Made by a program: the position numbers and the translations under genes. From Tubulanus polymorphus (Eukaryota > Nemertea > Palaeonemertea > Tubulaniformes > Tubulanidae): a stretch of 64,000 nt of DNA. Where the stretch lies: the NCBI RefSeq assembly GCF_964204645.1, contig NC_134035.1, positions 248,001 through 312,000 of the forward strand. The letters run 5' to 3'. The first letter of the stretch is position 1. The number at the start of each line of letters is the position of its first letter. This document shows, piece by piece, positions 4,601 to 39,535 of the stretch. Below the pieces are notes generated by a model. It ran no database searches. It had not been told where the DNA came from and saw only the letters and a program-made list of their open reading frames with translations.

Positions 4601-7600
4601 TTAACAGGCCGGCTATTCACAAAGACAGACGCAAGTATCTACGGACGAGTATCAAAGAGTTAGCGTTACTATTCACTGATCAGCCAGGTTTACTCGGCCC
4701 AAAGGTACAGTTACTATATATGTTTATTACATTTTGATAAAAGTTGAATATTCCCTCCATTGAGTTTAGTATTAATGTGGTTATAATGAAAAAGAACAGA
4801 TTTTGGATTAATTTATTGGGGGTAGTGTACGTATATAGTTTTGAATGAACTGCTAGGTCTATTGTTTTCGCTGAATTTTGACCAGATTTCTTATGATTTG
4901 TTTTCAGGCACTTTATATATTCATGGCATTGTCAATGTGTAAAGACGAAATTGAATGGTTGCTCAGACATTACGGAAATCCACCCCCTAAAAAACTAAAC
5001 TTGAGAGTGTCGGCTGAAGATTTTGTCGATCGTCAACTTCCTGAAATGCTGTTTCATATGGAAGAATTAAGAGGTAGGTTTACACAGATTGATGACGTAC
5101 CAAAGGGTTTGGTTCCGCGATATCCTGCATACTGTGTTTGCTTGGAGGATATCCTGCAGGATTTGGTTTCAGGATATCTCCACATGTTGTAGTTTCAGGA
5201 TATCCTGCTGCAGAGTGTAGGGTTCCCAGACTGCAAATTGTTCTTTGCTACATCATTGATATGTAATCAGCATTTAGTATTTTCTAATGTCTGTGATACT
5301 TTGCTCATTCTCTAGCGCTAGTGAAGAAATACAACCAGGTTATACAGAGATATTACATTCAAATGATGGCTGGTTATGACGCGCCGGCGTTAAATGAAAT
5401 CATACAAGTACGTCATGTTACGTTATTGGAATTTATCAATTATTAACGAAATTCTCGAATGTTATTTCATAGTGTTTTGGTATTTTCAGTCGTTGTCTGC
5501 CTGTCCAGAGGATGAATCAATGATTCTGTCTTCATTTTGTAATATAATGCAGTCACTGTCAGTGAAACAAGGTAATCACTTTCTCTCTCACTTCATAAAA
5601 TGAATTTCTATTTCATTTCACTCCGCTCAACTCAGATGTTTTGACTTGAGAGTGATATCTGAGTTGGACGGTACAGTAGACTCCGCTCAAGTCAGATGTT
5701 TTGACTTGAGAGTGATATCTGAGTTGGATGATACAGTAGACTCCGCTCAAGTCAGATGTTTTGACTTGAGAGTGATATCTGAGTTGGATGGTACAGTAGA
5801 CTCCGCTCAAGTCAGATGTTTTGACTTGAGAGTGATATCTGAGTTGGATGATACAGTAGACTCCGCTCAAGTCAGATCTTTTGACTTGAGAGTGATATCT
5901 GAGTTGGACGGTACAGTAGACTCCGCTCAAGTCAGATGTTTTGACTTGAGAGTGATATCTGAGTTGGATGATACAGTAGACTCCGCTCAAGTCAGATGTT
6001 TTGACTTGAGAGTGATATCTGAGTTGGACGGTACAGTAGACTCCGCTCAAGTCAGATGTTTTGACTTGAGAGTGATATCTGAGTTGGATGATACAGTAGA
6101 CTCCGCTCAAGTCAGATGTTTTGACTTGAGAGTGATATCTGAGTTGGATGATACAGTAGACTCCGCTCAAGTCAGATGTTTTGACTTGAGAGTGATATCT
6201 GAGTTGGATGATACAGTAGACTCCGCTCAAGTCAGATCTTTTGACTTGAGAGTGATATCTGAGTTGGATGATACAGTAGACTCCGCTCAAGTCAGATCTT
6301 TTGACTTGAGAGTGATATCTGAGTTGGATGATACAGTAGACTCCGCTCAAGTCGGATGTTTTGACTTGAGAGTGATATCTGTGTTGGATGATACAGTAGA
6401 CTCTGCTCAAGTCCAATCTATTGACTTGAGAGTGATATCTGAGTTGGATGGTACAGTAGACTCCGCTCAAGTCAGATCTTTTGACTGGAGAGTGATATCT
6501 GAGTTGGATGGTACAGTAGACTCTGCTCAAGTCCAATCTATTGACTTGAGAGTGATATCTGAGTTGGATGGTACAGTAGACTCCGCTCAAGTCCAATCTA
6601 TTGACTTGAGATTGATATCTGTAGTGGATGGTTCATACTATCATAAAAATATTTCTACAAATATCTGACAGACTACTAAATGTATGTTGATTGGATCTGG
6701 CTTGAGGATAGTCTACTGTTTTACTATCAATATCTTTCTAAACTGCCTCAGATTTTACATGATGTTTTTGTGTATTGTCGTTTCAGTTGAGATGAATGAG
6801 TTGTTTGATTTTCGCGGGATCCGTCTGGATTGGTTCCGACTGCAGGCGTATACCAGCGTTAGTAAAGCTGCGTTCAGTTTGTGCGATTATCGTAATCTCG
6901 CCGTTCACATGAATATGGTTTCATTTCACACTAAAATGGTCGACAGTCTCGATGAAATGTTGCTGGAAACATCAGATCTATCGATTTATTGGTAAGATTT
7001 CAGTAGATTGAGCTCCTCCTCACAGGTATCAGCCTGTCTAGTCCGAGCTCCTCCTCACTGGTATCAGCCTGTCTAGTCCGAGCTCCTCCTCACTGGTATC
7101 AGCCTGTCTAGTCCGAGCTCCTCCTCACTGGTATCAGCCTGTCTAGTCCGAGCTCTTCCTCACTGGTATCAGCCTGTCTAGTCCGAGCTCCTCCTCACAG
7201 GTATCAGCCTGTCTAGTCCGAGCTCCTCCTCACTGGTATCAGCCTGTCTAGTCCGAGCTCCTCCTCACTGGTATCAGCCTGTCTAGTCCGAGCTCCTCCT
7301 CACTGGTATCAGCCTGTCTAGTCCGAGCTCCTCCTCACTGGTATCAGCCTGTCTAGTCCGAGCTCCTCCTCACAGGTATCAGCCTGTCTAGTCCGAGCTC
7401 CTCCTCACAGGTATCAGCTGTCTACCGGTATCTTTCTTTCACATACTGGCTTCTCGTTAATCTAGGGTTCATGGTTTAAATCCTGATGGGGGCAGATTTT
7501 CTCACTTATCTCTGGTCTGTCTCCCTTTCAATGAAAGAAAGAAAAAAGCTTCAATAAATCCTTGAATGGCACTCGGCGGGGGTGGGAAGAAACCTCAAAC

Positions 7601-10600
7601 CTGATTGATGCTCAGTGAGTCCCTGAGTTAAGTTCAGCGGGTTGAGGCTAATATTGCAGATTTTTCATTTATGTTTACAGTTTCTATACGAATATATTTG
7701 AACACCAGTTTAAACAGTGTATGGAATTCCCTGCACAACATCGTTACAGCATCGCATTTCCGATGATCTGTTCGCATTTCATGAATGCTACGCATCCTCT
7801 CTGCCCGGAGGAACGACATTCGATCGGTACGACCAGCGTGCAGTACGCTCATTGGTTTATTAAAGAGATGACTGAAGAGGTTAATCAGGTCATCACAGCC
7901 GTTTGTGAGGAACAGTGCAATATGGCAGATAAGGTAATATAACAACCTTTAAAACACTTCTATTGATGACTACCCAAAAGTGCTGGTGATAATTCGAAAA
8001 TTTTAGAATATTCTACCCCAGTTTGTTGAATAACGTCCATACCCCTATAGTGCGTCTAAACCACAGCACGGTGTATGTTTGTATGTGCTGCCATCATTCA
8101 ATAGAGATAAGAACTAATTGCAAATAACATCGATATACCGCAATGCGGTTTACTAGCAAAGTCCATCTCCAATTTATACACCACATTGAAAGGGTAGATT
8201 TAAGAAAATTTACATCCAAAATTAGAAAGGAAATTCTATAAATTGCTTTTGGGTTTTTTATTCATAGAATGAACAGTGTTTTTCACATGTGTCTCATGTA
8301 TATTTGTAGTTGTTGCCGAAGAACTGCGCGGCTCACATCGCCAACGCCGTCAGTCGTAAGAAAAACAAAGATCGACGAAAACTACTTCCCGAACCTGAAA
8401 AACCCGGCACGGAAAGTTACCGCAAACATCGCGAAGAATTCAAAAAGTACGATTTCAGATTTCAATGTCTACAATCTACAGTTAGATCCTGTGCAACTGG
8501 ACCCAGTTCCACAGTTGTGAGTTAAGATTTAACTCTTGAGTTAACTAATTGAAAATTAACTAATGTTAACTCAGAGTTAACTCGAACTCACAACTGTGGA
8601 ACTGGGTCCTGGATCTTACAGGGTAATTGTCATTTTGATTTTAATCTTCAAAATCTTTTTTTCATATTTCATTTCATAAAGAATTGATAAGTTGCATATG
8701 GCGTTGACGGAACTGTGTTATGCGTTGAACTACTGTAGCGTTATCACAGTGTGGGAACATGGTTTCGTACCCAGGGAATTCTTTGTCCAACATTTAGAAG
8801 CCAGATTCAATAAGTAAGACAAATTGTTTTTAAATTCTACTCGCGAAGTAACGAAGAAGAATGAATGCACTTTTTATTTGTTTCTGATTTTAGGGCGTTA
8901 GTCGGTTTGATGATGTACAATCCTGAATCGAGTGAAATCGCTAAACCTTCGGAACTGTTAAACAGTGTACAGGCTATCATGAGTGTATTGCAGAGTCTGG
9001 AAAATTACAGTTAGTATCAAACCTAAATCTTAGAAAATCGAACATATAATTTTAAGAATTTAAAAGTATTTTACAGTAGACTCATCCTTAGTCGGTAGGT
9101 AAACTACTGAATTTGATGAATTTAACTAAAAATCTTTTAGGAAAACCTTTTTGCCTTATTTTTACTTGAGTCAGGGGCGGATCCAGAATTTTAAAGGCTG
9201 GGTGCTCTAGCACTCGGAGCACCCCTTCCTCTGGATCCTCTCCGGTCAGTTTCCCATCAACTGAAAACTACTGGTCCCAAAACTACCGGTACTGAATAAG
9301 CTTTAGTCTACTGTTAATAGTAAGGCATACCATATCAATTTATGTGATTTCTTGACTTCTAGCCCACTAGATCACATAGACCCTGTGAGTTCTATTGTCT
9401 ATCTTATCATTATATTGAGTTTTGATGTTGTATTATTTTCTAGTTCACGTTGATATTACTCGCGTATTCAATAACGTTTTACCGCAACAAACTCAACCGA
9501 CAGATAGCATCAGCGGAGAGAAAACCATCACTTCAACTTATACTACGTGGTACGTTAAACAATAATTACTGTAGGAACTAGCAATTCAAACAAGGGCTTT
9601 ATATCATTAAGGCAATTATTAATTCGATAATTCACAGGTATTTAGAAGTATTGTTACGGCGAGTGAGTAGCGGTCACATCGTTTATTCACCCAATCAGAA
9701 AGCATTTGTGAGTCTAACGGCTGAAGGACAATTACCGTTTAATGCAGAAGAATATGCTGATATTATGGGTAAGTTGAATAATAAAGAGTGAGTTGATCAT
9801 TCGTGCACAGATCACCGGTCAGTCTCGTAATTTTTTGAATAACAATTTGGTTAATTATCTACGTAGAAATGCGAGCGATGGCAGAATTAGTCGGTCCGTA
9901 CGGTATGAAATATTTAAATGAAAGATTGATGTGGCATACCGCTAGTCAAGTCGAAGAGCTGAAGGTCAGTGCTACTGAGTTCTCTGTTCAACTTTAACCC
10001 ATACACCGAGAATATAAGAATTTAAACTGCATATTTGAGTTTTATATTTATGGTTAACTTGGGGACTAATACAATCAACGATGGCTGACTGATGGCCATT
10101 TTAAGTTGAGAGATCTTTTGACTTAAGAGTGATATCTGAGTTGGATGATACAGTAGACTCCACTCAAGTCGGATCTTTTGACTTGAGTGGGATATCTGAG
10201 TTGGATGATACAGTAGACTCCGCTCAAGTCAGATATTTTGACTTGATGAGTGATACCTGAATTGGGCGATATTTCTAGTTGTGTTTATTTCAATCATAAC
10301 CAATTGTTGATGTTTATTGCAGAAATTGGTGATATTAAATAAGGATATACTGTCTAGTTTACGCAGTAGTTACGACAAACCTGATCAAATGAGAAATCTT
10401 TATCGTATGCTGCAGAGTAAGTTTCATCGCGGCCTCCACAAGTCGTCCTCCACTTAAGGTTTAGATACATGTAAAATGATTGAAATATTTTATATATTGC
10501 TATTTTTAGATGTTGATAACGTTTTACAAAGGATGACAATAATCGGAGTTCTTCTTTGTTTCCGAGATATTGCGCAGGAAGCATTGAATGATGTACGTTC

Positions 10601-12526
10601 ACTTAGATACTACCGATATCATCTTGAAAAAAACGCAATTATTGAAATTCTTAATTCATGATTTTCATTTTAGGTTTTAGAAAATCGAATACCGTTTTTA
10701 CTGAACTCGATTCATGACTTTCAACAGCACGTTCCAACTGGACAAGATTCAATGGTACATAATTAAACCACGTAACAATAAAACTGAGCGTTATTTAATC
10801 TAAAATACTATTCTATCTAAATACATTACTCAGTTTCTCCATGTAATCCAATAACAATCAACATTTCATCTTTCCATTTCATAAATAGCTGTCATCTATA
10901 AGGAATCAGGTAAATGTATTATTGAATGCAATGAGACTTCACGTGTATATGATTCGTATGCTTGTATTTACCTATATCTATTCACTTACCCGCAATGTTC
11001 TTATTTGGTTGTTTAGATTGTCAATGAAATGGCGTCAGCTGCTGGGTTGAAATGTGATACCGATCCTGTACTTTGCGCTGCTCTTAGATCGCAGAAAACT
11101 GCAGGTAAGTTTGGATCCCGGGTAGTTTGCAGTATTTTAAGACTTTAGGAGATGAGAGTTACACAATTATCCCCGAGGCCAATATTGGCTGTTCTTTTTA
11201 GCCCACTTAGGACTTTAGACCCGGTGTGAATATTGAAATTACTGGCATCATCAGATTGAAAAGTATTTCTCTACAAAATGGGCATGGTGTCCCTGGGCGC
11301 AATGCCAGTGCTCACTTAACGCAAAGTTTATTGCAAGAATATGTCACCCGAACCTAACTCAAATTCAGACATACCCATTCTTTACGTTGTCATGTTTTCT
11401 TAGTGCTAACAGTGATGTTATAATGAGTTTTAACTGTATATTATATCACATCTTGGTGTATGTCATGTATTTACAGAAGTTGGATCTGAAGATGAACACA
11501 ATATTGCCTGTCTGTTAATGGTGTTCGTAGCGGTTTCGTTACCAAGACTCGCAGCCAATCCTGAATCCCGTTACAAACCAGCTCTCGAAGGTCATCTCAA
11601 TAATATGCATTGTATTTCTAAAGCTGTGAACACGTTAGCGGCGGCATTGTTTACCATTTACGGTAGAAACGATGTTGAAGAAAGACTCAAAGAATTTTTG
11701 GCGGTAAGTTTCAGACTTTTACTTGATGGTTTTGAAAATTTGAGAAAATTCATACAGCTTTAGTTGGTCTACACAGACCGAGTTAGTTAACGGTATTTCA
11801 ACATGTTTGACAGGCGCTGCCATCTTTCAATATAGATAAAACTAATTACAGTGAACTCGCCCGATATACCGCCCTCCCATATACCACGACCCCCACCTAC
11901 CGCCATGTTTTCTCAATGTACATCTCTATACAAATACATAGTAAAACACTCCCGATATACCGCCAGAATTGTTCTGCACCTATGTGGGCGGTATATCGGG
12001 GGTTTACTGTCGTTCTGCACCGATGTGGGCGGTATATCGGGGGTTTACTGTCGTTCTGCACCGATGTGGGCGGTATATCGGAGGTTGACTGTACTAATTA
12101 AATCAATACATCGCACTGCGGTGTAGATGCACAGCACTGAAAGGGTTAATTTCACTGATCTATAATTGTGTATTGTTTCAGTTGGCCTCGTCTAGTTTAC
12201 TTCGACTCGGGCAGGAGCCCGACAAGGAAGCGGTGAAAAACCGAGAATCAGTTTATCTGTTATTAGATCAAGTGAGTTGAAAATCTCATCATCTCGGCGC
12301 AATGGCAGATCCAGCCTAGCGATACTCAGATTTGACCCCCGGATCCGCTACTGCAGCATATTCTTTGAATGTTCGTATATTTATGTAATCTAACATGTAC
12401 ATGATTTTATATTTCTAGATTGTACAGGAGTCTCCGTTTCTTACAATGGATCTTCTTGAATCGTGTTTCCCGTATTGTTTGTTGAGGAATTCGTACCACG
12501 CTGTTTACAAAGGTTCAGAGAATTGA
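1661..12526 (+). CDS. NCKAP1: NCK-associated protein 1 (Nap1/Hem/Kette), WAVE complex subunit, complete
   Basis: The product is a scaffold subunit of the WAVE regulatory complex, which pairs with CYFIP/Sra1 and relays Rac1 signals to Arp2/3 actin nucleation at the membrane. Coding exons read: 1661-1765, 1892-1996, 2076-2168, 2428-2484, 2712-2854, 2977-3067, 3374-3505, 3741-3789, 3869-4025, 4406-4462, 4608-4704, 4908-5073, 5316-5407, 5490-5571, 6787-6991, 7681-7933, 8310-8446, 8682-8813, 8894-9009, 9444-9549, 9638-9768, 9867-9964, 10323-10416, 10510-10592, 10674-10754, (10889-10909), 11017-11104, 11477-11703, 12182-12271, 12419-12526. All junction phases agree and the sum divides by three: 1124 aa, or 1131 with the microexon. 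Human is about 1128. The start reads [20 protein letters not shown], close to vertebrate NCKAP1. Other landmarks are [21 protein letters not shown], split here as [10 protein letters not shown] and AYTSVSK, then [20 protein letters not shown] and [16 protein letters not shown] near the C-terminus. The stop is TGA at 12524. Vertebrate proteins end similarly in HAVYK plus a short tail. Confidence 0.97.
3106..3215. mobile_element. MITE family 1, copy in NCKAP1 intron 6
   Basis: A ~110-bp foldback sequence. The left end reads GGACCTAGTTCCACAG and the right end is its inverted match ACTGTGGAACCGGGACC, with GAGTTAACTC-type internal palindromes. Further copies lie at 8499, 60092 and 63086. No coding capacity, so a non-autonomous DNA element is likely. 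Confidence 0.7.
5621..6640. repeat. 60-bp hairpin minisatellite, ~17 copies, NCKAP1 intron 14
   Basis: The sequence repeats with an exact 60-bp period for about 17 units. Each unit contains CTCAAGTCA, seven bases, then TGACTTGAG: a perfect 9-bp stem. Because 60 is a multiple of three, both strands stay open for over 320 codons, but this is an intron and the frames are artefacts. Related units occur at 10104-10262, 53821-54060 and (degenerate, inverted) near 62590-62630. Confidence 0.95.
7010..7428. repeat. 35-bp minisatellite, 12 copies, NCKAP1 intron 15
   Basis: Tandem units beginning GAGCTCCTCCTCACTGGTAT, period 35 bp, with a single recurrent T/A variant (CACTGG versus CACAGG). The array sits directly after the donor of the exon ending at 6991. 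Confidence 0.95.
8040..8215. repeat. Dispersed repeat, copy 1 (intron 16 of NCKAP1)
   Basis: Shares the blocks GCTGCCATC-TTCAATA-AGATAA, ACTAATT, a CGATATACCGC-like core and CA-ATTGAAAGGGT with 11795-12155 in the same order. Both lie in NCKAP1 introns. Function unknown; probably an old interspersed element. Confidence 0.5.
8499..8609. mobile_element. MITE family 1, best-preserved copy
   Basis: Perfect terminal inverted repeats of about 25 bp, starting GGACCCAGTTCCACAGTTGT and ending in its reverse complement. It fills nearly half of a 235-bp intron between the exons ending 8446 and starting 8682. Confidence 0.8.
10104..10262. repeat. 60-bp hairpin repeat family, ~2.5 copies (NCKAP1 intron 22)
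   Basis: Same 60-bp unit and same orientation as 5621-6640, with a few substitutions. This second locus inside the same gene shows the unit is dispersed as well as tandem. Confidence 0.85.
10889..10909 (+). other. NCKAP1: Candidate 21-nt in-frame microexon of NCKAP1
   Basis: Flanked by AAATAG and GTAAAT. Reads LSSIRNQ in phase 0 between an exon ending in phase 0 (10754) and one starting in phase 0 (11017), so inclusion or skipping both keep the frame. It falls where vertebrate NCKAP1 has a few extra residues before ELSSAAGL. A candidate only: 21 nt is short evidence. Confidence 0.5.
11795..12155. repeat. Dispersed repeat copy 2 with nested inverted-repeat element
   Basis: Outer blocks match 8040-8215. 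Inside, an element with inverted ends (CAGTGAACTCGCCCGATATA versus the complement of TATATCGGAGGTTGACTG) is inserted. Its right half is amplified about three times with a 41-bp period (from 11971, 12012 and 12053). Lies in NCKAP1 intron 27. Confidence 0.55.
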
Positions 12527-22991: not shown

Positions 22992-23110
22992 GGGCCCGAG
23001 TCGCTGAAAAGTTGGTTAGAGTTAATCAGTGGATAGTTGACATAGTGACGATTACAACTTCACTGTTACGACGGTATTTATCCGTTGGTTTTCTTTAACT
23101 GACATTTTGA
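22992..23110. mobile_element. MITE family 4, divergent copy
   Basis: Contains CGCTGAAAAGTTGGTTAGAG and the core ATAGTTGACATAGTGACGAT. The same layout occurs at 61221-61342 and 63201-63327. Confidence 0.5.
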
Positions 23111-23361
23111 CCACCACCGGGCCTCTGACGACGCCGTCAACAAACAGCAGCCGTCACGGTTACTGTTATTACAACATCAAACAATTCACCGAATTCTAAA
23201 CATCAAACACACAAAAAACAAGACACGTTTTTATCGTTTGAAGTTTGTTTTTTACGAGGAAGAAAATTTTATGAAGAATTTGACCTCGTGAAATTTTTGA
23301 AATGAAGTGAAACTGCAGACATCGTCGATCTGGTTTAACCTACTGATTCATAGATATTGTA

Positions 23362-23592
23362 GTCTGCTATTAGAGAGGTTGTCCGCTATTAGAGAGGTCG
23401 TCCGCTATTAGAGAGGTTGTCCGCTATTAGAGAGGTCGTCCGCTATTAGAGAGGTCGTCCGCTATTAGAGAGGTTGTCCGCTATTAGAGAGGTTGTCCGC
23501 TATTAGAGAGGTTGTCCGCTATTAGAGAGGTTGTCCGCTATTAGAGAGGTCGTCCGCTATTAGAGAGGTCGTCCGCTATTAGAGAGGTCGCT
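23362..23592. repeat. 19-bp minisatellite, 12 copies
   Basis: Perfect 19-bp period, unit TCCGCTATTAGAGAGGT(C/T)G. The only variable site is the C/T. Confidence 0.95.
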
Positions 23593-24274
23593 TCTGTTGT
23601 TGATATCGACAGATGGACAGATGGAGAGCAGCTTCTCGCGATAATATCATCATTCGAGGAGTCGATGACTCAAACGACTCAACGACTGACGACTCAAAAT
23701 GACTCCGTCTCTCCGAGTAATTGTTGTTTATACGGATTATGATCCCGACGTTTTGATATTTATCAATAATCTGATAATATCCGTCAAAATCTCATCTCAT
23801 CTCGCTCAGTTTCTCGCTGATGATAGGTTGTGTATAAAGATTCGAGAATTGTTGTTGTCGTTGGAGACAATACCTGGCCATGTGTTGCTAGCCTACGGCA
23901 GTCGTCGTGACGATGATTCTATTGTTGGTTGTAAATCGGTTGTTTTACGCAGTTTTGAGTGGGCTGACTGATGAAACCGGTGCACGCGCTGTTCGAATAA
24001 ACTAATGAACCATGAGTGTAAAAAATGGCTCGAAAATTATCTTTGAAATCGTTTGTCCGGAAAGCGTTGTAATATTACAGTCCTGTATCATCCAGAAACC
24101 CGAGGGGCTCTAATACTAAACTTACGCATTTGCGTCTAGAAGATTCTTCAGTAAATTCTTATAGATTTGTGTATGATTCTCTGATTACAGCTCACCTCGA
24201 GGTCCCGTTACATCCAAAACCTCCTGCACCCTATTCTTCAATAACTACAATAGATAGTTTTCTACTCATTTCAG
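23593..24274. other. Spacer before first recognised CECR2-like exon
   Basis: No supported coding exon. A 90-codon frame at 23699-23971 has no recognisable similarity and no matching splice signals. The branch and pyrimidine region of the 24275 acceptor is at the right end. Confidence 0.35.
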
Positions 24275-24297
24275 GTGCTGGCCAACAACTTGATGCA

Positions 24298-27200
24298 ATG
24301 TTGGACCTTCCATATTTGATGCACTTTTTGCACATTCATCGGCCAAAGTTCAAGTTTATCAAGTTGACGATAAGGGTAAGTTTATACAGAGAAACTAGAC
24401 AGATAGAGTAGAGAGAGGAGAGAGAGGTGTTTATCAGTTTGTGACCCACACATCACACACTCATCAGCTGTTAGTACTGATCATATAGAAAAAAACAACT
24501 CTAGAAAACTGTAGTTTATCATTTACCAATGAGAGGTGTCTGACTGTATACAGCGAGAGGCCTCTGTGGGCAGCTGAACCGATGATCACTAACCGTGTAG
24601 AATAGATTGGATTAGCACCTGTAAAACTGGTTATTGTTGATTCATCGATGGATTATTGAGAGAGATTGAGATTCGATCAGAATCTGGATACATATCCATC
24701 GACTATTAGACTATATCAGTGTATCTCTGGATGAATCGGTTAGTGTTGTTAGGATTCATGGATTATTCACTATGAGCATCTTAATCAGCAGCAGTAGCAG
24801 CAGCAGCAGCAGCCGCAGTGTGTAAACTAGAGTTTTCTCTGCCATTATTCTGTGAGTTAGAGTAACTGTGTAAAAGTTTTACAACTCCAGATGTTACTTG
24901 CACTCACCTTATGAGAGATATAAAAATTCTATCTTTGATTTCTCATATTCTGGGGTCAGTTGCTGCTCAATGCCGTAGTAAATACTCTACAGGACTATAG
25001 ATTTAGAACATTGAAAATGAATCTCGCAACTGCGGTACCGGGCCCTGGGCCCAGTTTCACAAAATAGTTTAACTCTAATTTTTGGTGTAATTGCCATTGG
25101 TTACGTCATGTTTTCAATGAGGACAACAATTCAAACTTAACCGTTTTAGGCTTAAACTTTTTCGTGAAACTGGGCCCTGGTATTAGTCTGGCTGTTAAGT
25201 CTTTTGAGCAACTAACCCAGGCCCCAGTTCCATAGTTCTGGGTTGAGTTAAGATAGGTTTGTTGTTTAACCGATGTACTGATGAACTGAGTCCAGTAGAA
25301 CTAACGCAGACTGCTGCTCCATTCTCATAGTACACTAACAGGATGTATCACTCGGTTTATAGGTCGCAGTTTTATAACATTGAAACTTTTCTGGAAAAAA
25401 ATCAAAGAACTATTCTGAAACCACTTGAACATTCGTTAAAAACTCTAGGTCTGGTTCATCGTGTCAGACTCTTAGATAGATAAGACTAAACCGAGCTTAT
25501 TTTCATCCAGTTGTACAGATAAGATGAAACCGGACCCAGTAGAGTTGGCTATTTACACATGTCATTGGTTTCTTTGTAGAAATATGAGTCAGTTTGATGG
25601 ATTTGAAATATATCCGTAAAATTGACTCACAGCAGCGTGGTGCTGTCGCTGTCTGATTGACCTACTCACTGAATACAGGGACAGCGTGGTGCTGTCGCTG
25701 TCTGATTGACCTACTCACTGAATACAGGGACAGCGTGGTGCTGTCGCTGTCTGATTGACCAACTCACTGAATACAGGGACAGCGTGGTGCTGTCGCTGTC
25801 TGATTGATCAACTCACTGAATACAGGGACAGCGTGGTGCTGTCGCTGTCTGATTGACCAACTCACTGAATACAGGGACAGCGTGGTGCTGTCGCTGTCTG
25901 ATTGATCAACTCACTGAATACAGGGACAGCGTGGTGCTGTCGCTGTCTGATTGACCAACTCATTGAATACAGGGACAGCGTGGTGCTGTCGCTGTCTGAT
26001 TGACCAACTCACTGAATACAGGGACAGCGTGGTGCTGTCGCTGTCTGATTGACCAACTCACTGAAAACTAGCCTTTTTAATTCTTCTTTTCTTTTGTCTT
26101 GTTATTTTTATAGGAACTTGAACAGTGTATTCGTGATAAAGACAGTTTAGTGACACCAGATATTTGCGCACGTATTTTACGTTATGTAATTCCCGATTCC
26201 AATATTCAGTAAGTAACAACCTCGAGTTCTCAGTAACAGTCTAAGAGTTCCTCGGAGGATCGCACCAGTTCTCATATCTATTTGACTTGGTTTGAGAGGT
26301 CATCGGGTGACCTCGTTAAGTCAGTTTTGCCTGATAGATGTTTTTAAACTTTAAATTAAAGGACCAGAATGAACTAGCTCAGTTGAATTAAAACATTGAT
26401 TTTTAATCCATTTTACATCGATACAGCGTAAAATGGATTAATAATCAGTCCTTTCTGGTTCGTAAAAGACATCAGGTATATACAACTACTGGAACTGACT
26501 GAGCTGGGTTACACGATGTTATCTGAAGCTTAGTTGAAATAGACATAAATGAATCTGTTGTAATCTGTGTATTAGATAAAATATAACAGTAATTCAATTA
26601 ATAGTATTATATATTCGAATGTAATACCGAACTGATTCAATATGAATTTCAATTTTTCCAGACATTAATTATATCTCTGAGTATCAGATCTTCGGTGTCA
26701 TTATTTATTCAACTGTTAATATAAACTGAATTAGTTCCGTATTCGCTGAGCAATTACAGCTGTATACAGAGGTCCGTCCGTAGAAATCTCATCAAAGATA
26801 ATCATTTCATATTTTGTTGTTGTTGCAGAATAACGAATTTCGAGTCGCATCTGACAAAGTTATTGAGCGAGAAACGTAAAGATTTGAATCCCCTAGCAAC
26901 GAAATCTTTTATTGAACTAACTGCTGAAGAGAAGGTGAGGTTGCTAATGGTTATGATACCCGCGGGATCCATCCCGGGGCTCTTTAACTAGTCCTATCAG
27001 ATCCCGGGGCTCTTTAACTAGTCCTATCGGAGCCCGGGGCTCTTTAACTAGTCCTATCGGAGCCCGCGGGTTCTTTAACTAGTCCTATCGGATCCCGGGG
27101 CTCTTTAACTAGTCCTATCAGATCCCGGGGCTCTTTAACTAGTCCTATCAGATCCCGGGGCTCTTTAACTAGTCCTATCGGAGCCCGGGGCTCTTTAACT

Positions 27201-30200
27201 AGTCCTATCGGAGCCCGCGGGTTCTTTAACTAGCCCTATCGGATCCCGGGCCTCTTTAACTAGTCCTATCGGATCCCGGGCCTCTTTAACTAGTCCTATC
27301 GGATCCCGGGCCTCTTTAACTAGTCCTATCGGATCCCGGGCCTCTTTAACTAGTCCTATCGGATCCCGGGCCTCTTTAACTAGTCCTGGGTCCCGCGGGT
27401 TCTTCCCTGATGATATTGTTCAATGTGAGCTGAGAGACACTGTCAACAGCCTCTTCCTACACTGTCAACAGCCTCTTCAACTGTGATTTAACTCCAGTGT
27501 ATTGTGTAGAGATACACCTGTGCCTAGTTCCACAATGAGATACTGGCACTGCTACTGTGGCAAGTGAGGATTCCAGTTTGTGATTAGTAAATCAATGTTC
27601 AGTGAAATCTATACCATACACTGAGTGTGAAAGTCAATCTTATATCTATTCGATGATTTGTTTGATAATATTTCGGATTCAGCAGCCTAAAAATCAAGTT
27701 CAAATTTCATCGAAAATTAACTAATTTTCATTACATTAATGCAGTGAATGATTGCGCCATCTGGTGAGTGCCGTTACCCGACTGGACGGAGGCGGCATTT
27801 GTCTGGATGAAGTTTATATGTTAGTTTGTGTTTTATTATAGGTTGATATATTGAAATGGTTAATAGAGTATACTTACGATGAGAAAGATGAAGATTTGGT
27901 TGATTCCGTTAATGACACGTGTCCCGCCACTGATGACATGGTTTGTATATACAAAATCCCCTCTCAAAAAACTTCTCCATTCCGCTAGATACCACTGATT
28001 TCGGACACATACTTAAAAGCCTATGATGAAAGGCGAGGATGGAGTCTCGATGATCTGATATTATTCATGCTGTGTATTTATATTTTTCAGCGAGCGATCA
28101 ATGCCGGACAGGACGCTGCAGGAAATACTTACTGGTATTTTGATGGTAAGAGTTACTGTGAATTTGTGCAAATCGACTGGAAATTTTCCATTTCTTCACA
28201 AGCTTGAACTAATGCAGGCCATGGAACTGGAAATGTACAAACACGGGGCTGAGGCGAAGGGTCGAGATAGTACCCAATTCTCCATATGCATATAATGTTT
28301 GTGAACATTGGATGGAGATGATTGAAAAATGCCACATTCATCACTATAAACTGGTTGTCTAGATATAAATTCTGACTGCAACAAATCCTTGGTTTGATCA
28401 CCATTAACAAACACTCGCATGTCTATATTATAAAATAATATAGAACTCCAAAATTGTCAGAATTGTTTCCCTTCCTTCAGCTAATATTTGATTCGACGTT
28501 TTGGTTATATCCTAAAAGTCATCATCATCATAAATACTTTTTACCCATCATCCAGCAGATTGGAGGGATATTATCGTCACCTTCGTCCATCCGGGCGAGC
28601 GGGCGGGCGGGCGGGCCAGTGGTAGGACGTCTAAGAGAATACTGCTCCTATCAAACAGTATTGTATCCATATCTAGTTTTACATCGAGCCTTGGTTTAGT
28701 AAATCTGGTTCGAGTACTCAGTAATGTAGGGATATTTTATCTTGCACAGATTTGAGATTATACAAAGAGATCGCCAGTAAGAAACTGATCACTCGTAAGG
28801 AATGGGAATGTTGTTGCGTAACGTTGAAAGATTGGATCGATTTGTTGGGTAAATATCGCGCGGTGACGAACGCCCAGGAACGAGAACTATTCGAATTCTT
28901 AAACAACGAAATTTTCCCCATCATTCAAGTGCAATTGCAGGTAAGTTCAGTATCGGGCTGAGCAGAGTTTAGATTAAAAAATCAACTCCTGAATTGAAGT
29001 GATGAATAAGTTTAATAAAACTCGTGAATCCGTTTAGGAGGAAATCAAAGCTGCCAACTGTTCCTGATTCCTGAAGTCTTACTGTTGATTACTGATTAAT
29101 TTGAACAGAAATATGAAAGATGTTACTGAGGGTCTTAGTGTTGATTACTGATTAATTTGAACAGAAATATGAAAGATGTTACTGAGGGTCTTAGTGTTGA
29201 TTACTGATTAATGTGAACATTTTCTTTCTTTTTTCAATGAAATGTAAGTGAAAAAATTCAATTAGTTACTAACGTTGGCAGCCCTGGTTTATCCTTTTTT
29301 GAAACAGGACCCTGAGTTTTAGAGGTTAACCCTTCTCTGGATCTGGTGTTTCTCAACTTGCAATTATTTTCTATTTTACAGAAAATCGAGAAAGGTGAAT
29401 TTCTGTCACCTGTGAATCAGGATTTAGACAATGCTGTGATTTTACAAAAAGAACTCTCCGATTCAAACAATACCGGATTATCATTGTTATTATCGGATAA
29501 AGTTGCCACGACGACATCGACAACCGGAGCGACAGCGGGGAGTGATATGGTGCTGAAATCGGAACCGGGACTCGAGACAGTTAACGGTGGTTCAAAGGAG
29601 AATGATACAGGTGGCGCTAGTGGTATTCTGAATGACGAAATTGGTGCTAATATTATCAATATTAAACATGAAGGTAAAATGACTAAAACACTTTTTGTAG
29701 TTTTACATTTATAAGATATTTTGCAGTTTTGGGTTTGTAGGTTTCAGTGTGGGGTTTGTAGTGGGGAGAGGGAGACCAAGAGTGGGAGGAAAGTAAGGGA
29801 GAGACTGGCAGGGTACGGAGTGGAGTGGAAGGAAAAGGGATTTGTATCTAATAGTGATTATTTCTGGTTTTGTTTTTAAGGTGATATCAAACAAGAGATA
29901 AAGTCTGAGTTAGACGGTCAGCAGACGGATATGACTGGTTTTAATGGAACTATGAGCGGTGAGTTTTAGGAACTGATTTGTCTCCTCGTTGAGGAAATCA
30001 CAGTGGACCCTCCTTTATACAAAGGAACATCGTTGATACAGTGGAACCTCAATAATACAAACCTCGTGGGCATACGTGAAATTTTAATTTGTGTAACTTT
30101 TCAGGTGATAAAGATAAAACACATATAAGCGGACAGATAGGAATAGGGACGACCCCTAATCAACGTTGTTCTCAGCAGGCGGAGAATTCAAGCCATTTCA

Positions 30201-33200
30201 TGCAGCAGCACAGTCAGATATTCGTATTCTCGACTGCGTTAGCGAATAAAGCGGCTGATTCTATACTGAGACGTCAGTGTAAATCTCTCATACAATATCA
30301 CCTCGATCAACCGCAAACAAAGGCTTTCTTACAGGTAAATAAATATTGCCATTTCATCAATGTTTGAAATTTGTAAATATGGGCGTACTCTTTTATGACC
30401 TCCGAAGTCTCCATCCGAAATCTCCGGTTGGCTCCACACAAAATCCGAATCACACCACCTCAACAGAAAGGAGGTTTCGGAGACTCCACAATGCCACGTG
30501 ACCAATTAGAGAGTACGATTGGAGGCAGACGGATTCTCCAATCTGATAAAAGAGTTCGCCCTATGAATTTAATCACGCTCACTGTCATCGCCTAAGTTTG
30601 ACTCTTAAGTTACTTCATTTCAACGGATATTTACTGAGAAGTTGGCCTTGTGAAAACTTTAAACTTAAAAATTTTGTGTTTCAATGAATACATGATGCCA
30701 CAGCCACTCAGAGACTATTCCTGCAATATTTCACGCGATTGATGGCATTACAATGTTGTACAGAATACTGTACATTGGGTCTCAGCAGTGTTAGATGTGC
30801 TTCCTGTGAATGTGAACTCATTTCTAGAATTGTACCGAGGGCCGTAGAGGCTATAGCCAATCTCTTAGACTTTTCGACTGAAGTAACGTCTGTAGAACTG
30901 GATCCTGGTGCTTGTATTACCTGCCTAAATGTAGTACATTCTAATTACTCAAACTTTATACCAATTGTCACAAAGTGTGAACTATTTCTATCTTTCTCTC
31001 GAGATGACAGAAAAAATATTCATTTCATTACAGAAAAACCCGATGAATGTGAAAATGAACCAATTTAACCAACACCAACAGAGATCTCAGGGTTTCGCGA
31101 CGATGTACAGCGGTAACATGCAGAAACCAACCGGTCCTCCGGGTCAGGGACAATTTAGACCCAGTATGGATTCAAACAATACGGTCGCGCAGTGGGTCGA
31201 TCAACAAAACATGAACTTACAACAAGCGGGAATAAACCCGATGGGCGGAGGAGGTCCCGGACCTTATAACGGCCCGCCGACACAGCATAATCAAGGATTT
31301 CCGCAACAAAGTCCGAACGTTAATATGGGAACCTGGCAACAGCAACAGAACGCGATGATGCATCCGATGATGCAACACGGGAATCCCGGGTTTAATCCGA
31401 ATAACGCTTGCCTACCGATGGGTGTTAGTCCGCATAATCTATCTCATACTAAAGTTCCTAATGAGAATCTTACGCCGGAACAATTACAACGAAGAGAAGA
31501 ACACCTAGCGAGTCTACGCAAAATACAACAGATGTTGTTTCCCGAACAGGCCGGAGGTGACGGTCAGCCGATGAATGTACCGATGGGTAGCCCCGGAGGA
31601 GGTATGCCCGGTATGCCTCCCGGCGCTATGCAACACAATCCCAACATGCAGATGCACATGCTGCAGCATAAAATGATGGGTCAACGCGGTATGAGTCCGA
31701 ACTATATGGGCCCCGGTGGTCCGCAAGGTCCGCCTGGTCCGCGAATGATGGGTCCATCCCCTCACGGTATGATGTCCCCTCAGCCGATATCTCAAGCCGA
31801 TTTACAGAATATGACGCCGAATCAACGCGAGTGGTACCGGTTACAGTGCGAGTACTACGACGAAAAACGCCGTCAACAGCATCAACAAATGAACGCGATG
31901 CGCATGCAAGGACCGGGTCCGGGCCCGACGGGGCAGGGTCCGGGGCACGGCCCGCCGCCCTCGTACTCGTATTCGTTAGCCCAGAAACGTCACGTGATGC
32001 CCGGTCAGTTGCCATCGCCGACGTCACCGGGTTTTAACGGTCCGATTCCTTCTCCACATTTACAGCCATCACCGAATCCACCTGAACTGATGCAGCAGTA
32101 TCCCGCACCTCCAACATCTGGCGGCCAGAAACGACCTGCTGAGAACTATATCGGTCCTGGTGGTGGTCCGGGTGGTGGTGGTGCTAATGTAGGGGGCAAT
32201 GGTTACGATCCTATGATGAACCTTAACAATATGGGTCAATTTGGCAGCAATGATCCAAATTTAATGCAACAGCAGCAACGTGGTCAGCCTGGATTACAAG
32301 GGCCAGGAGGTCAGCCTGGATTACACGGTCCGAGTGGTCAACTAGGATTACATGGTCCAGGTGGTCAGCCAGGAATACACGGGCCAGGTGGTCAGCCGGG
32401 AATACACGGGCCAGGCGGTCAACCAGGAATACACGGGCCAGGCGGTCAGCAAGGACTTCATGGCCCAGGTGGTCAGTCTGGTTTACATGGTCCAGGTGGC
32501 CAGCCAGGATTGCCAGGCCCAGGTGGTCAGCCAGGATTACCGGGCCCAGGTGGTCAACCAGGATTACAGGGCCCAGGTGGTCAACCTGGTTTACATGGTC
32601 CAGGCGTCCAGCCAGGATTACCGGGCCCAGGTGGTCAGCCAGGATTACCGGGTCCAGGTGGTCAGCCAGGATTACCTGGCCCAGGCAGTCAGCCAGGGTT
32701 CCATGGCCCAGGTGGTCAGCCAGGGTTCCATGGCCCAGATGGTCAGCCAGGATTACACGGCCCAGGTGGACAACCAGGATTACATGGCCCAGGTGGACAA
32801 CCAGGATTACAAGGCCCAGGTGGACAACCAGGATTACACGGCCCAGGTGGTCAGCCAGGATTACACGGCTCAGGTGGTCAGCCAGGATTACACGGCCCAG
32901 GGGGTGATGTTTTTATTCAGAAAGCGCAAAGTCCAGAACAATTTCTCGATTCGTCGTCAGGTGGGGCCGCTAAACCTCCGCCTAGTTACGGGCAGGCGAC
33001 AAAACGACGAAAAGTGGATAACGGACAAATGGACGATATTTATAAACAATTACAACCGACACCTTCCCCTCAACAGATAAACTATTTAACTCAGTTCGAG
33101 GGCCAGGAATTAACGATTACTAAACAAGCAAATTTAGCATATCATGACAACCAGGGGGCGCTGGGGGCGGCTAATGATTCGAGTCTTCCATCACAGAAAA

Positions 33201-35593
33201 CTACATCGTCGCAACCGGGCACCCCGGCAACGCCTCAACAACACAACAATAACAACAACAATACCGTTACCACGCCGACTTCAACGATCAATCAGAGTCC
33301 GATAGGACAGCAATCGACCAATCAGATGCCGCCGAGTCCGTTCTCACCGGGTATCGTACAACAGAGAGGACTGTCAACCGTGGCAACCGGCGCTAACGCT
33401 TCGAATAATAGTAAAAACACGGGCGCAGCGAGACCGCAGCCGAGTCCGATGTCTCACAGCGGCCAGATGGCGTCACCTCACACGCCGAACCCGGTACCTT
33501 CTCGTACTACGCAGCAACCCGGTACTCCGCTTACAACAATACCCGTTAAATCACCGTTATCGACTCATAGTCAAAAATCAATATCGAGTCCGTTACCGAT
33601 CAGTCAGAAACGACTGAGTACCGACTCTAACGCGACTACGACGAGTCAATCAAATCAGATCATCGTTAATTCTCCTTCCGTCGGCGCCACTCAACGATTA
33701 ACTCACTTCGATCCGCCGTCGTTAACAACGACGACCAGTTCGACTAACGCGTGTGTGTCCAACAGTAAACCGGCTACTCCGACTACGGGCAAGAGCGCCA
33801 CCATGTCGAATATAACATCGGCGAGTCTCGCTAATCTCGCGAAGGGCGTCGAACATCTGTCGAATCAGATGCAACAGAACATGCTACAAGGCGGTCCGTT
33901 TCATAACATACAAATACAGAGTCAAGTGTCCGATTCTAAAAATAACGGTTCACCGCAAACATCGTCGCAACATAGCATCCATCAACAATCACCGCAAGCA
34001 GCGCCGACTAGTGTCGCTCCGCATAGTAATAATAGTAATAATTCGAATCAACCTCCGAGTGTTAATAATACGTTCGTTAACGCGACAATGTCGATTCAAC
34101 AACTCAACATTCAAAGTGTCAATAACCCGGCAATGGGCGGGGCTAATATGCAAATACAACAGGCGAGTATGGAACAACAACAACAACAGCAACAACAGAC
34201 AGGTGGCGCTGTGAATATACCGGGTGGTATGTCCGGACAGATGATGAATCAGTCCATGAGCGGACAGACGATGCAACAGCACAGTCTGCAGAACTGTAAT
34301 ATACCACCACCAGGTGGCGCTCCTCGGATACATAATCAATCGCATCCTAACATGCCTCCCGGTATGCAAAATATGAATATACCTCCGGGAATGCACAGCC
34401 AACCGGGCATGGGTCCCGGTGGTGCGGGAATCAGTCCCGCCATGTCGATGAATCAACCCGGAATGAACCATTCGATGTCGATGTCCCAGAGTCAAACAAT
34501 GGGTAATAATTCGGCTGCAATGTTTCAAAATCAACAGCAGCAACAGCAAGCAGCTGCAGCTGCGCAGTTTCAGCACCAGCAACAACAACAGCAACACGGA
34601 CCGCTTCCATCGATGGCGTCAATGGCTTCGAGTATGCAGCAGCAGCAGCAGCAGCAGCAGACGACAGTATCGAGTTCTAGTTCTAATTCAGCCGCTGCAT
34701 CAACCTCTCGTACGTCTGGTAGTGTTAAACCTATCACTAACGCTAACGTTCAAATACAAGCTAAAGCACCGAATACGATACAATATTTACCGGCGAATCC
34801 ACCAGTTTCACAACCAACGCGATTCCCGCCTAAATTACCCGATTTCGCCGACATCAATCGATATCCGGCTCCGTTAGAAGGTAAAATGGCCGCTGCGCGC
34901 ATGCAGTACTTCCCGCCGAATAACGACATGCCCCAAGGCCCCGGTCCAGGTATGGGTAATATGGGCCCGCACATGTCCATGTCTTCGCCCGATCAAGTGA
35001 TGAGTCCTCAACAGCAGATGATGATGAGTCAAGGACACCAGCCTCGTTCTCAAATGTATCCCGGTAACATGCAGCCGGGGATTCCCCCGCACGGGATGTA
35101 CGACAACATGCATAATATGCCGACGCAACATTACGGTAACCATGGTAATGCGGGAATGATGCCGCAAGGTCCGTGCGGACATCCTCACGGGCAACATATG
35201 ATGGGCGGCCCGGGGGATTACCCCCCGCACGGTGGACAAATGGACGCTTTAATGAATTCTCAATCGCCGACCATGATGGGTGGGCCGGGACACGGGCCTC
35301 CTATGGGGCACAGTCAAAATCCTCATGGGCACATGATGCACGGACAGCATATGCAGCAGATGCAGGCCCAACAGATGTCGATGCAGGGCCCGGGTATGGG
35401 TATGCACCACGGTCACGGCGGTATGGGCGCACCGGTTGACGGTCAGGGCTATCTACGACCACCGCCTCAGCAGAATTACAGCATGCAGTATCAACAGTTT
35501 CAACAACAGCTTTACTCGCAGGGCCGACCGAGACATCCGGGTATGGGTAACATGGGCATGAATCAGAATCCTCAATTCCCGGGTATGATGTAG
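24298..35593 (+). CDS. BCL9: Candidate CECR2-like N-domain / BCL9 (Legless) chimeric Wnt co-activator, complete
   Basis: BCL9/Legless bridges beta-catenin and Pygopus in nuclear Wnt transcription complexes. Coding exons: 24298-24375 (acceptor at 24275), 26114-26208, 26829-26934, 27842-27940, 28091-28145, 28750-28940, 29382-29673, 29881-29958, 30105-30334, 31034-35593. They sum to 5784 nt (1927 aa plus stop) and every junction phase matches. Residues 1-210 match the CECR2 N-terminus (LPYLMHF, RELEQCI, VDILKWLIEYTYDE, AGNTYWYFDDLRLYKE, NAQERELFEFLNNEIFP). Residues ~369-400 are HD1 (QIFVFSTALANKAADSILRR). Residues ~554-579 are HD2 (LTPEQLQRREEHLASLRKIQ). MTPNQREWYRLQCEYYDEKR at ~668 and LPDFADINRYP with MQYFPP at ~1676-1707 are further BCL9-family blocks. 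NLS-like KRRKV lies at ~1065. The rest is Pro/Gly/Met/Gln-rich with poly-Q runs. BCL9 identity is firm; joining the CECR2 part rests on splice phase only, and two adjacent genes remain possible. Confidence 0.85.
24376..25630. other. Intron with foldback elements
   Basis: No exon seen. It holds a CAG-rich run (24787-24818), a divergent foldback at about 24952-25048, a family 3 MITE at 25046-25178 and a half-copy of family 1/2 near 25217-25290. Confidence 0.5.
25046..25178. mobile_element. MITE family 3
   Basis: Inverted ends TGGGCCCAGTTTCACAAAA and the complement (TTCGTGAAACTGGGCCC) enclose a ~90-bp interior with GTTTAAC / TTAAAC motifs. A related, decayed element lies at about 52141-52230. 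Confidence 0.65.
25633..26066. repeat. 49-bp minisatellite, 9 copies
   Basis: Units ACAGCGTGGTGCTGTCGCTG and on to AATACAGGG; CAGCG-tgg-tgctg pairing gives each unit hairpin potential. It ends 47 bp before the acceptor of the exon at 26114. Confidence 0.95.
26970..27400. repeat. 30-bp minisatellite, ~14 copies
   Basis: Units GATCCCGGGGCTCTTTAACT plus AGTCCTATCG; the left half has GGGGCTC, the right half GGGCCTC, so two subfamilies meet in the middle. Starts 35 bp after the donor at 26935. Confidence 0.95.
28146..28749. other. Intron between exons 5 and 6 of the CECR2-BCL9 gene
   Basis: No exon seen. The only notable feature is a short (GGGC)n run at about 28593-28615. Overlapping frames on both strands are not credible. 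Confidence 0.5.
29076..29218. repeat. 56-bp direct repeat, 2.5 copies
   Basis: Near-identical units starting GTCTTA(C/G)TGTTGATTACTG within the intron 28941-29381; nothing else stands out in that intron. Confidence 0.9.
30215..30310 (+). other. BCL9: BCL9 homology domain 1 (Pygopus PHD-binding)
   Basis: Reads QIFVFSTALANKAADSILRR followed by QCKSLIQYHLDQ. Vertebrate BCL9 has a very similar FSTEMANKAAEAVLKGQ helix. This 32-residue helical hairpin binds the PHD finger of Pygopus. The Phe-Ser-Thr and Ala-Asn-Lys-Ala core is intact. Confidence 0.92.
30381..30562. mobile_element. MITE in BCL9 intron
   Basis: Inverted ends GGGCGTACTCTTTTAT and the complement of ATAAAAGAGTTCGCCC, interior with paired CTCCGAAGTCTCC / GGAGACTCC and CTCCAATC motifs. 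The 66-codon frame across it is not a gene. Confidence 0.65.
31469..31546 (+). other. BCL9: BCL9 homology domain 2 (beta-catenin-binding helix)
   Basis: Encodes LTPEQLQRREEHLASLRKIQ then QMLFPE, matching the vertebrate helix LSQEQLEHRERSLQTLRDIQ. This amphipathic helix docks on the first armadillo repeats of beta-catenin; the R, L and I contact positions are conserved. Confidence 0.93.
32282..32902 (+). repeat. BCL9: Coding 27-bp minisatellite: collagen-like Gly-X-Y tract in BCL9
   Basis: Twenty-three units of nine residues, consensus GQPGLHGPG, residues ~825-1031. Glycine is at every third position through 69 triplets except two breaks (V in unit 13, S in unit 16). Leu/Ile/Phe and His/Pro/Gln vary at fixed sites. 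The +1 frame is also open across it, as expected for a period divisible by three. Confidence 0.95.
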
Positions 35594-38659: not shown

Positions 38660-39535
38660 TGGTAGTTTTAATACAAGAATAAAATTTAATTTGCTTGAAA
38701 TTCTTCCTTTGGCATGTGAGCCTCCCGCTTTACCGGATGCTAAAACATTCCGCAGAGAAAAGAGTTCTATCAAAAATAGTTTAAAATTCGTATTAAAAAG
38801 ATGATCCCCTTCAAAAAACCTTATACGATAGTAGAATTATTTATATACAATGGAATCGTATTAGATAATCAACGAAATTCTGCTAAGAAAAATATCTGTT
38901 TTACTCGCATGCCACAGTATGATAGCGAGGCTGGGAAAGATATCTACCGTACAGTGCTGTCCCTATGAATAACGATAGCGGAATTTCTGTGAACTAAAAT
39001 AATAGCGCATATTTACCGCCGGAATTTAAATGTCCTTATTACGTACAAAACGGACCAGTGTGTCGTCTAATTCTGTTTAAATATGATACTATGAATACGT
39101 TCTGAATTTTGTATGATATTTCCTTATTTTTTAGGTAACATATTTAATTCTTTTTAGCTAAAATTCACTTACTTATCAATGAATATAGTACTTACATACA
39201 GAATATATTATTCATTTACATTTTGAATGATGATTTATTATCTGAATTGACAAAATTTCCGTATTTCTTCTTCGATATATTCTATTTGCGCGCAAATAAA
39301 CAGGGAACATACAAACACCTGTCGCTCTCTCTTAAACCATACTAGAAATACCCCGATTCAAATTTACTTTTTAAGGCTCATTCTTTTATAGAACAATTGT
39401 TTGGTTCGAACGTTTCAGAGCAGTTTTCAGAGTTTGAGAATTTTCCTCGGAATCCGGCCCGCAAATCGATAATTAGTTCGTCCACTCCTGCCGTTCGAAG
39501 ACTCTGGCAAGCGAGTATTATGTTAGTTCAGGTTT
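38660..39535 (-). mobile_element. ~0.9-kb interspersed repeat X, copy A (inverted)
   Basis: The reverse complement of this segment matches 44100-44962 and 47570-48452 over its whole length. Shared blocks include CGGGCCGGATTCCGAGGA (as complement here), GAGCGACAGGTGTTTGTATG, and CCGTTTTGTACGTAATAAGG. No open frame of note. Likely a non-autonomous DNA transposon or part of one. Confidence 0.8.

Follow-up and report, generated by a model that had tools for sequence, protein, structure and literature searches.

The window analysed here, a stretch of 64,000 nucleotides from the nemertean Tubulanus polymorphus (contig NC_134035.1, positions 248,001 to 312,000; C11:248001-312000 in the searched genome of 267.8 Mb and 77 contigs), contains a chain of ten exons on the + strand (24298-35593), in which a DDT/WHIM-type module related to CECR2 and KIAA2026 is followed in frame by a linker and a full BCL9. 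The gene structure appears real and unusual, and its most likely product is a fusion protein. We consider it probable that one gene encodes one protein made up of these three parts, in which the module may, by analogy, dock ISWI.

When spliced in frame, the ten exons gave 1927 codons and one terminal stop, and the nine introns were all of the GT-AG type with phases matching across the junctions. Both the codon count and the phase agreement at nine junctions had been claimed in a first-pass annotation of this DNA and were reproduced; the end given there, 31546, proved too early, the chain continuing to 35593. Eight of the nine junctions are internal to one of the two halves, as in any gene, so that the exon 6/exon 7 junction alone bears on a fusion, and a phase match at this junction would occur in 1 case of 3 by chance alone. 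Homology in each half, the splice sites and the phases all support the view that exons 1-6 form a DDT/WHIM-type module read in frame with BCL9. From the earlier reading of the locus as a fusion, the in-frame chain was retained, its statement on poly(A) signals and its end were not, and its CECR2 label holds in part.

Identity of the BCL9 half and of the module

The BCL9 identity of the downstream half is secure as judged from its sequence, HD1 and HD2 being located downstream of the module in the same frame. Among PDB sequences, HD1 was best matched by 3zpv (protein BCL9 homolog, E 4.6e-6), followed by the BCL9 chains 2vpe (E 2.7e-5), 2vp7 and 2vpb and, more weakly, by the Pygopus 2/BCL9-like chains 2xb1 and 4up0. 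The best match of HD2 was BCL9 in 2gl7 (E 2.6e-4), 3sl9 was also found, and the Pfam family BCL9 (PF11502) scored 50.2 bits with a cut-off of 25. A genome search for the BCL9 HD2 gave one match, from a single scored candidate, and a search with the linker exon 7 returned only that exon. The sequence MTPNQREWYRLQCEYYDEKRR, further downstream, agrees with HD3 as described in the accessible part of PMC5352222, with its invariant W and F/Y doublet, an agreement with a description only. HD1, HD2 and the HD3-like stretch have the same order in the chain as in BCL9, BCL9L and Legless, and the body is BCL9-like in composition, with P, G, S, Q and N accounting for 60% of residues 409-1927. In the accessible part of PMC5352222, BCL9/B9L is 'presumed to be an extended protein', whereas in the chain BCL9 is preceded by a module of about 210 residues. 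No DDT/WHIM module is mentioned for BCL9 in the accessible parts of PMC5352222 and PMC10287724.

Four SUMO-site-like motifs (LKSE, IKHE, IKQE and IKSE) were found clustered in residues 266-315 of the linker (exons 7-8), a cluster given without a chance estimate. Viral contigs searched with HD2 and prokaryote genome contigs searched with HD1, both collections without animal genomes, gave no match; the same viral contigs searched with exon 6 gave one match of 20 residues (L012), which was taken as chance.

When the genome was searched with the module, six of the seven matches were its own exons and the seventh was a weak match (E 0.83) on the minus strand at C11:3434112. This weak match led to a gene here termed CECR2-like, with the exons EVPCVAHFCSLF... 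and a bromodomain downstream, so that the same genome has a separate, bromodomain-bearing CECR2-like gene. The module and the N-terminal parts of the CECR2-like gene were collinear and identical in 59 of 222 columns (27%; E 2e-12, computed with the database size set at 1e7), the alignment omitting a long stretch of the CECR2-like gene that separates its YWYF exon from its KKWE part. The Smith-Waterman score was 166, compared with 32.3 ± 5.0 for shuffled sequences, and none of 1000 shuffles reached 166. A phase-2 intron was found in the same alignment column in both genes, and their terminal phase-0 introns fell in columns 232 and 233 with the sequences left uncut past the border. By this identity and these common introns, the N-terminal DDT/WHIM module of CECR2 appears to be present in the chain too. 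The further chain introns at residues 26, 93 and 145 differed from the CECR2-like places, the one at residue 126 was located 12 columns from the CECR2-like 'K|D' intron, and the chain had nothing to match the phase-2 intron that follows KKR in the CECR2-like gene.

The CECR2-like gene differs from the chain by its bromodomain, by AT-hook-like motifs (two at the locus) and by a long acidic, AT-hook-bearing stretch which splits the module. None of the at least 38 bromodomain matches listed in the genome with E values of 0.01 or lower, from at least 46 scored candidates, fell inside the window, in agreement with the first-pass annotation, which had seen no bromodomain, and the AT-hook core [RK]GRP is absent from the 1927-residue chain. 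Among single-bromodomain chains, CECR2 was the closest to the CECR2-like bromodomain (69.2 bits; GCN5 61.9), multi-bromodomain chains scoring higher as wholes (polybromo 107.3, BRD4 79.3 to 81.2 bits). The CECR2-like N-terminus gave sub-threshold Pfam scores throughout, with 21.8 bits for the KIAA2026 helical domain, 19.7 for DDT, 18.1 for WSD and 15.2 for WHIM1. Besides these bromodomain, AT-hook and Pfam results, the name CECR2-like rests partly on a likeness to mammalian CECR2 that we presume. The module itself scored 21.5 bits with the KIAA2026 helical domain (PF23450; cut-off 27.8; last 33 of 142 positions only, the similar CECR2-like score falling at the other end) and 21.1 bits with Cnd1, below the cut-off of 26.4. 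The residues ILVFMWYC constitute 40% of the module, compared with 20-23% in the remaining chain parts examined, and its about 210 residues are presumably folded and more hydrophobic than the rest.

The earlier label 'CECR2-type' agrees with CECR2 being the nearest relative over the full length and having introns in common, but KIAA2026 is about as close over the common part. KIAA2026, which we take to be BRD10, is located separately, at C11:6.08 Mb, and a WHIM-like stretch of it could be aligned with the module over about 83 columns. The two internal introns of its aligned part miss the chain intron places (column 265 merely marks where the sequence was cut), and 9.5 kb of the KIAA2026 locus revealed no counterpart to the C-terminal part of the module. 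Over the full length the chain scored 166 with the CECR2-like gene (z 27.3) and 109 with KIAA2026 (z 15.9, 500 shuffles), over the common part 124 and 108, respectively, and the score between the CECR2-like gene and KIAA2026 was only 50 (z 3.8 to 4.6). In 153 gap-free columns from one genome, small numbers throughout, 24 residues were common to all three, 22 to chain and CECR2 only, 23 to chain and KIAA2026 only and 10 to CECR2 and KIAA2026 only; sign tests on this sharing gave p values of 0.035 and 0.050. A recent duplication of CECR2 was rejected as a simple account, the module being, over the common part, as near to KIAA2026 as to CECR2 and those two being less alike. Were the module a recent, fast-evolving copy of CECR2, it should be no nearer to KIAA2026 than CECR2 itself; it therefore looks like an old third branch with gene structure and C-terminal part in common with CECR2, and by these comparisons the simple transfer of a CECR2 piece to BCL9 does not account for it. 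In the KIAA2026-like gene (G000:C11:6082000-6091500, L013), a bromodomain match was located upstream of the helical domain, the opposite of the CECR2 order.

The border at intron 6 and the alternative readings

The best local alignment of the module with the CECR2-like gene stops at chain residue 209, the chain intron being located after residue 208, and at the last CECR2-like residue before the CECR2-like intron. Exon 7 was tried as a continuation of CECR2 and rejected, as its score against the next CECR2-like exons was 22.0, compared with 22.5 ± 3.8 for shuffled sequences, and 276 of 500 shuffles reached it. As the likeness ends at phase-0 introns one column apart, the module stops and BCL9 begins at an intron place in common with CECR2. 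Intron 6 is 441 bases long with phase 0 on both sides, which leaves little room for a gene end and a new start. Its donor is the perfect consensus, a 9-mer present twice on the + strand of the window, and the acceptor of exon 7 is good, with a pyrimidine fraction of 0.75 that is reached by 4.2% of the window YAG sites. We infer that transcription would run across intron 6.

Ahead of exon 1, at 23001-24000, the CpG observed/expected ratio was 1.43 and 1.52, compared with 0.96 for the whole window. Intron 6 had a low ratio of 0.44 over 297 unmasked bases, as had introns 1, 3 and 7 (0.51, 0.59 and 0.23), and the ratios of introns 2, 5 and 9 were 0.94, 0.76 and 0.75, introns 4 and 8 being too short for scoring. 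This pattern is weak evidence for one transcript. The match to the upstream gene NCKAP1, on the same strand, extends to position 1118 of a profile of 1119 positions, and exons 1-6 are therefore unlikely to be its tail.

Several observations weigh against one gene encoding such a fusion. The hexamers ATTAAA at 28973 and AATAAA at 29014 are found inside intron 6, and the first-pass annotation was wrong to report no poly(A) signal there. The CpG ratio is noisy, reaching 1.16 in the 500-base window 28501-29000 and 1.33 in exon 7, and some windows within the BCL9 body or further downstream have more than 1.5, among them 33501-34000 (1.85) and 39001-39500 (1.71), which exceed the putative promoter. 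The profile check proposed earlier for the module gave a sub-threshold WHIM1 score (17.8 bits, cut-off 19.1), and Pfam DDT was unmatched at E up to 10. A PDB sequence search with the module gave nothing credible (best E 0.4), and genome scans found six matches of WHIM1, scanned exon by exon, and two of the KIAA2026 helical domain, none of them inside the window. Finally, the ATG at 24298 given earlier may not be the start of the coding sequence, as 24275 is preceded by a 3′ splice site and another ATG, out of frame, is found at 24293. From this acceptor, and from one of phase 1 similarly placed in the CECR2-like paralogue, we infer that exon 1 extends upstream of 24298; in our reading, both N-termini begin at a phase-1 acceptor, a few residues apart. 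A search for an upstream coding first exon (GT[AG]AG donors, 14.0-24.3 kb, exons below 400 bases) gave six ATG-to-donor candidates in the right phase, two of them with a common donor, and none was convincing.

The hexamers of intron 6 would fit two abutting genes, of which the first encodes a short DDT/WHIM-only protein and ends by polyadenylation near 29014, and the second, BCL9, starts from a methionine in exon 7 or 8. The frame indeed stops six codons into intron 6 (VSSVSG and then a stop), the CECR2 likeness stops at exon 6, and exon 7 contains an in-frame methionine. However, the donor of exon 6 is perfect, the good acceptor of exon 7 would be superfluous in an independent first exon, the frame of the chain stays open in exon 7 between acceptor and methionine, and intron 6 is CpG-poor. 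AATAAA is also common, with 51 copies on the + strand of the 64 kb, the two hexamer kinds occurring at 0.80 and 0.64 per kb, and we regard two separate genes as unlikely. Identical splice and poly(A) signals would be seen if one locus gave two products, the full fusion and a short module-only isoform made by polyadenylation in intron 6 and competing for ISWI, but hexamers of both kinds are common in the window and this arrangement is quite improbable. An artefact of assembly or gene model, by which unrelated pieces were joined through a contig error or an over-reading of splice sites, could be suspected in a region rich in tandem repeats, where assemblies can slip. Yet the window is without N and lies inside a single 13.97 Mb contig, a random join would hardly be expected in a phase-matched intron with good sites at a place common with CECR2, and in either half the predicted frame of the exons shows homology to other proteins, all of which makes an artefact very improbable.

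Proposed ISWI docking at Wnt enhancers

In the favoured reading of one gene and one fusion protein, a transcript crossing intron 6 would join the module and BCL9 in one predicted polypeptide. The module may dock an ISWI ATPase by analogy with the CECR2 DDT domain, which according to the accessible part of PMC7948406 is needed for SNF2L binding, the homology being at 27% identity. HD1 would hold Pygopus and HD2 would capture beta-catenin, as the accessible part of PMC10287724 reports for BCL9; there, deletion of HD1 abolished the complex with Pygo2, LDB1 and SSBP2. BCL9 is in the accessible parts of PMC5352222 and PMC10287724 an extended adaptor from Pygopus to beta-catenin, and a nucleosome-sliding enzyme could be tethered to Wnt enhancers by the BCL9 adaptor itself. 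A genome search for the ISWI-type SLIDE domain gave one match.

Proximity labelling has detected BAF remodeller subunits in the vicinity of B9L, and ISWI is unnamed in the main text of that study (PMC5352222). If the fusion is true, an ISWI-docking module would constitute a second, direct remodeller link besides BAF, would connect Wnt input with nucleosome sliding in a natural, testable way and would name the remodeller recruited by the enhanceosome in that lineage. Taken as a hint ('fused here, partners elsewhere'), the fusion would suggest that ISWI complexes could work with BCL9 in other animals. It is conceivable, if doubtful, that in early animals, or in one large group of animals, BCL9 had a third-branch module, since lost in vertebrates and flies, by which the Wnt enhanceosome recruited ISWI directly through the beta-catenin adaptor, and that the disordered BCL9 is a reduced form. 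Among the titles listed from the open-licence literature none concerned such a fusion of CECR2 or a DDT domain with BCL9; those listed for CECR2 together with BCL9 were on cancer, infection, disease genes or drugs, and no paper combined BCL9 with a DDT domain. The architecture is new as far as our searches of that literature reach.

Feature coordinates and neighbourhood

Table 1. Positions in the window of the exons of the chain, its BCL9 elements and the neighbouring genes
Feature	Position	Strand	Remarks
NCKAP1 gene	1682-12511	+	nearest recognised upstream neighbour
Exon 1, start of DDT-like region	24275..24375	+	3′ splice site before 24275; chain counted from ATG 24298
Exon 2, DDT-like region	26114..26208	+	ends at phase-2 intron common with CECR2-like paralogue
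Exon 3, DDT-like to WHIM1-like region	26829..26934	+	
Exon 4, WHIM1-like region	27842..27940	+	
Exon 5, GNTYWYF motif	28091..28145	+	
Exon 6, C-terminal part of module, KEWECC..W..NNEIFP	28750..28940	+	
Intron 6, module/BCL9 border	28941..29381	+	CAG/GTAAGT donor, TTTTCTATTTTACAG acceptor; ATTAAA 28973, AATAAA 29014
Exon 7, linker	29382..29673	+	unlike CECR2-like exons at corresponding place
Exon 8, linker	29881..29958	+	
Exon 9, linker and HD1	30105..30334	+	
HD1 (Pygopus-binding element by sequence) and adjoining DQPQTKAFL	30215..30331	+	
Exon 10, BCL9 body through stop codon	31034..35593	+	
HD2 (beta-catenin-binding helix by sequence)	31469..31549	+	
HD3-like stretch, W and YY doublet	31811..31873	+	motif described in PMC5352222, compared by description, not alignment
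27-base tandem repeat, about 23 copies, in frame	32280..32905	+	collagen-like GPGGQPGLH-like units in BCL9 body
Vinculin-family gene	57030-64000 and past window end	+	downstream neighbour

Flanking genes were sought with those 145 of 238 open reading frames of at least 50 residues that passed a repeat filter. Three of the 145 matched ribosomal protein L15. A mollusc haemocyanin family, tried as an indicator of the phylum, gave no match, a negative of no informative value. RNA families and tRNAs were searched for and none was found within the window, which starts 0.25 Mb from the first base of the contig. Minisatellites are numerous in the window (71 Tandem Repeats Finder rows, some of them overlapping), and several are located in introns of the chain gene.

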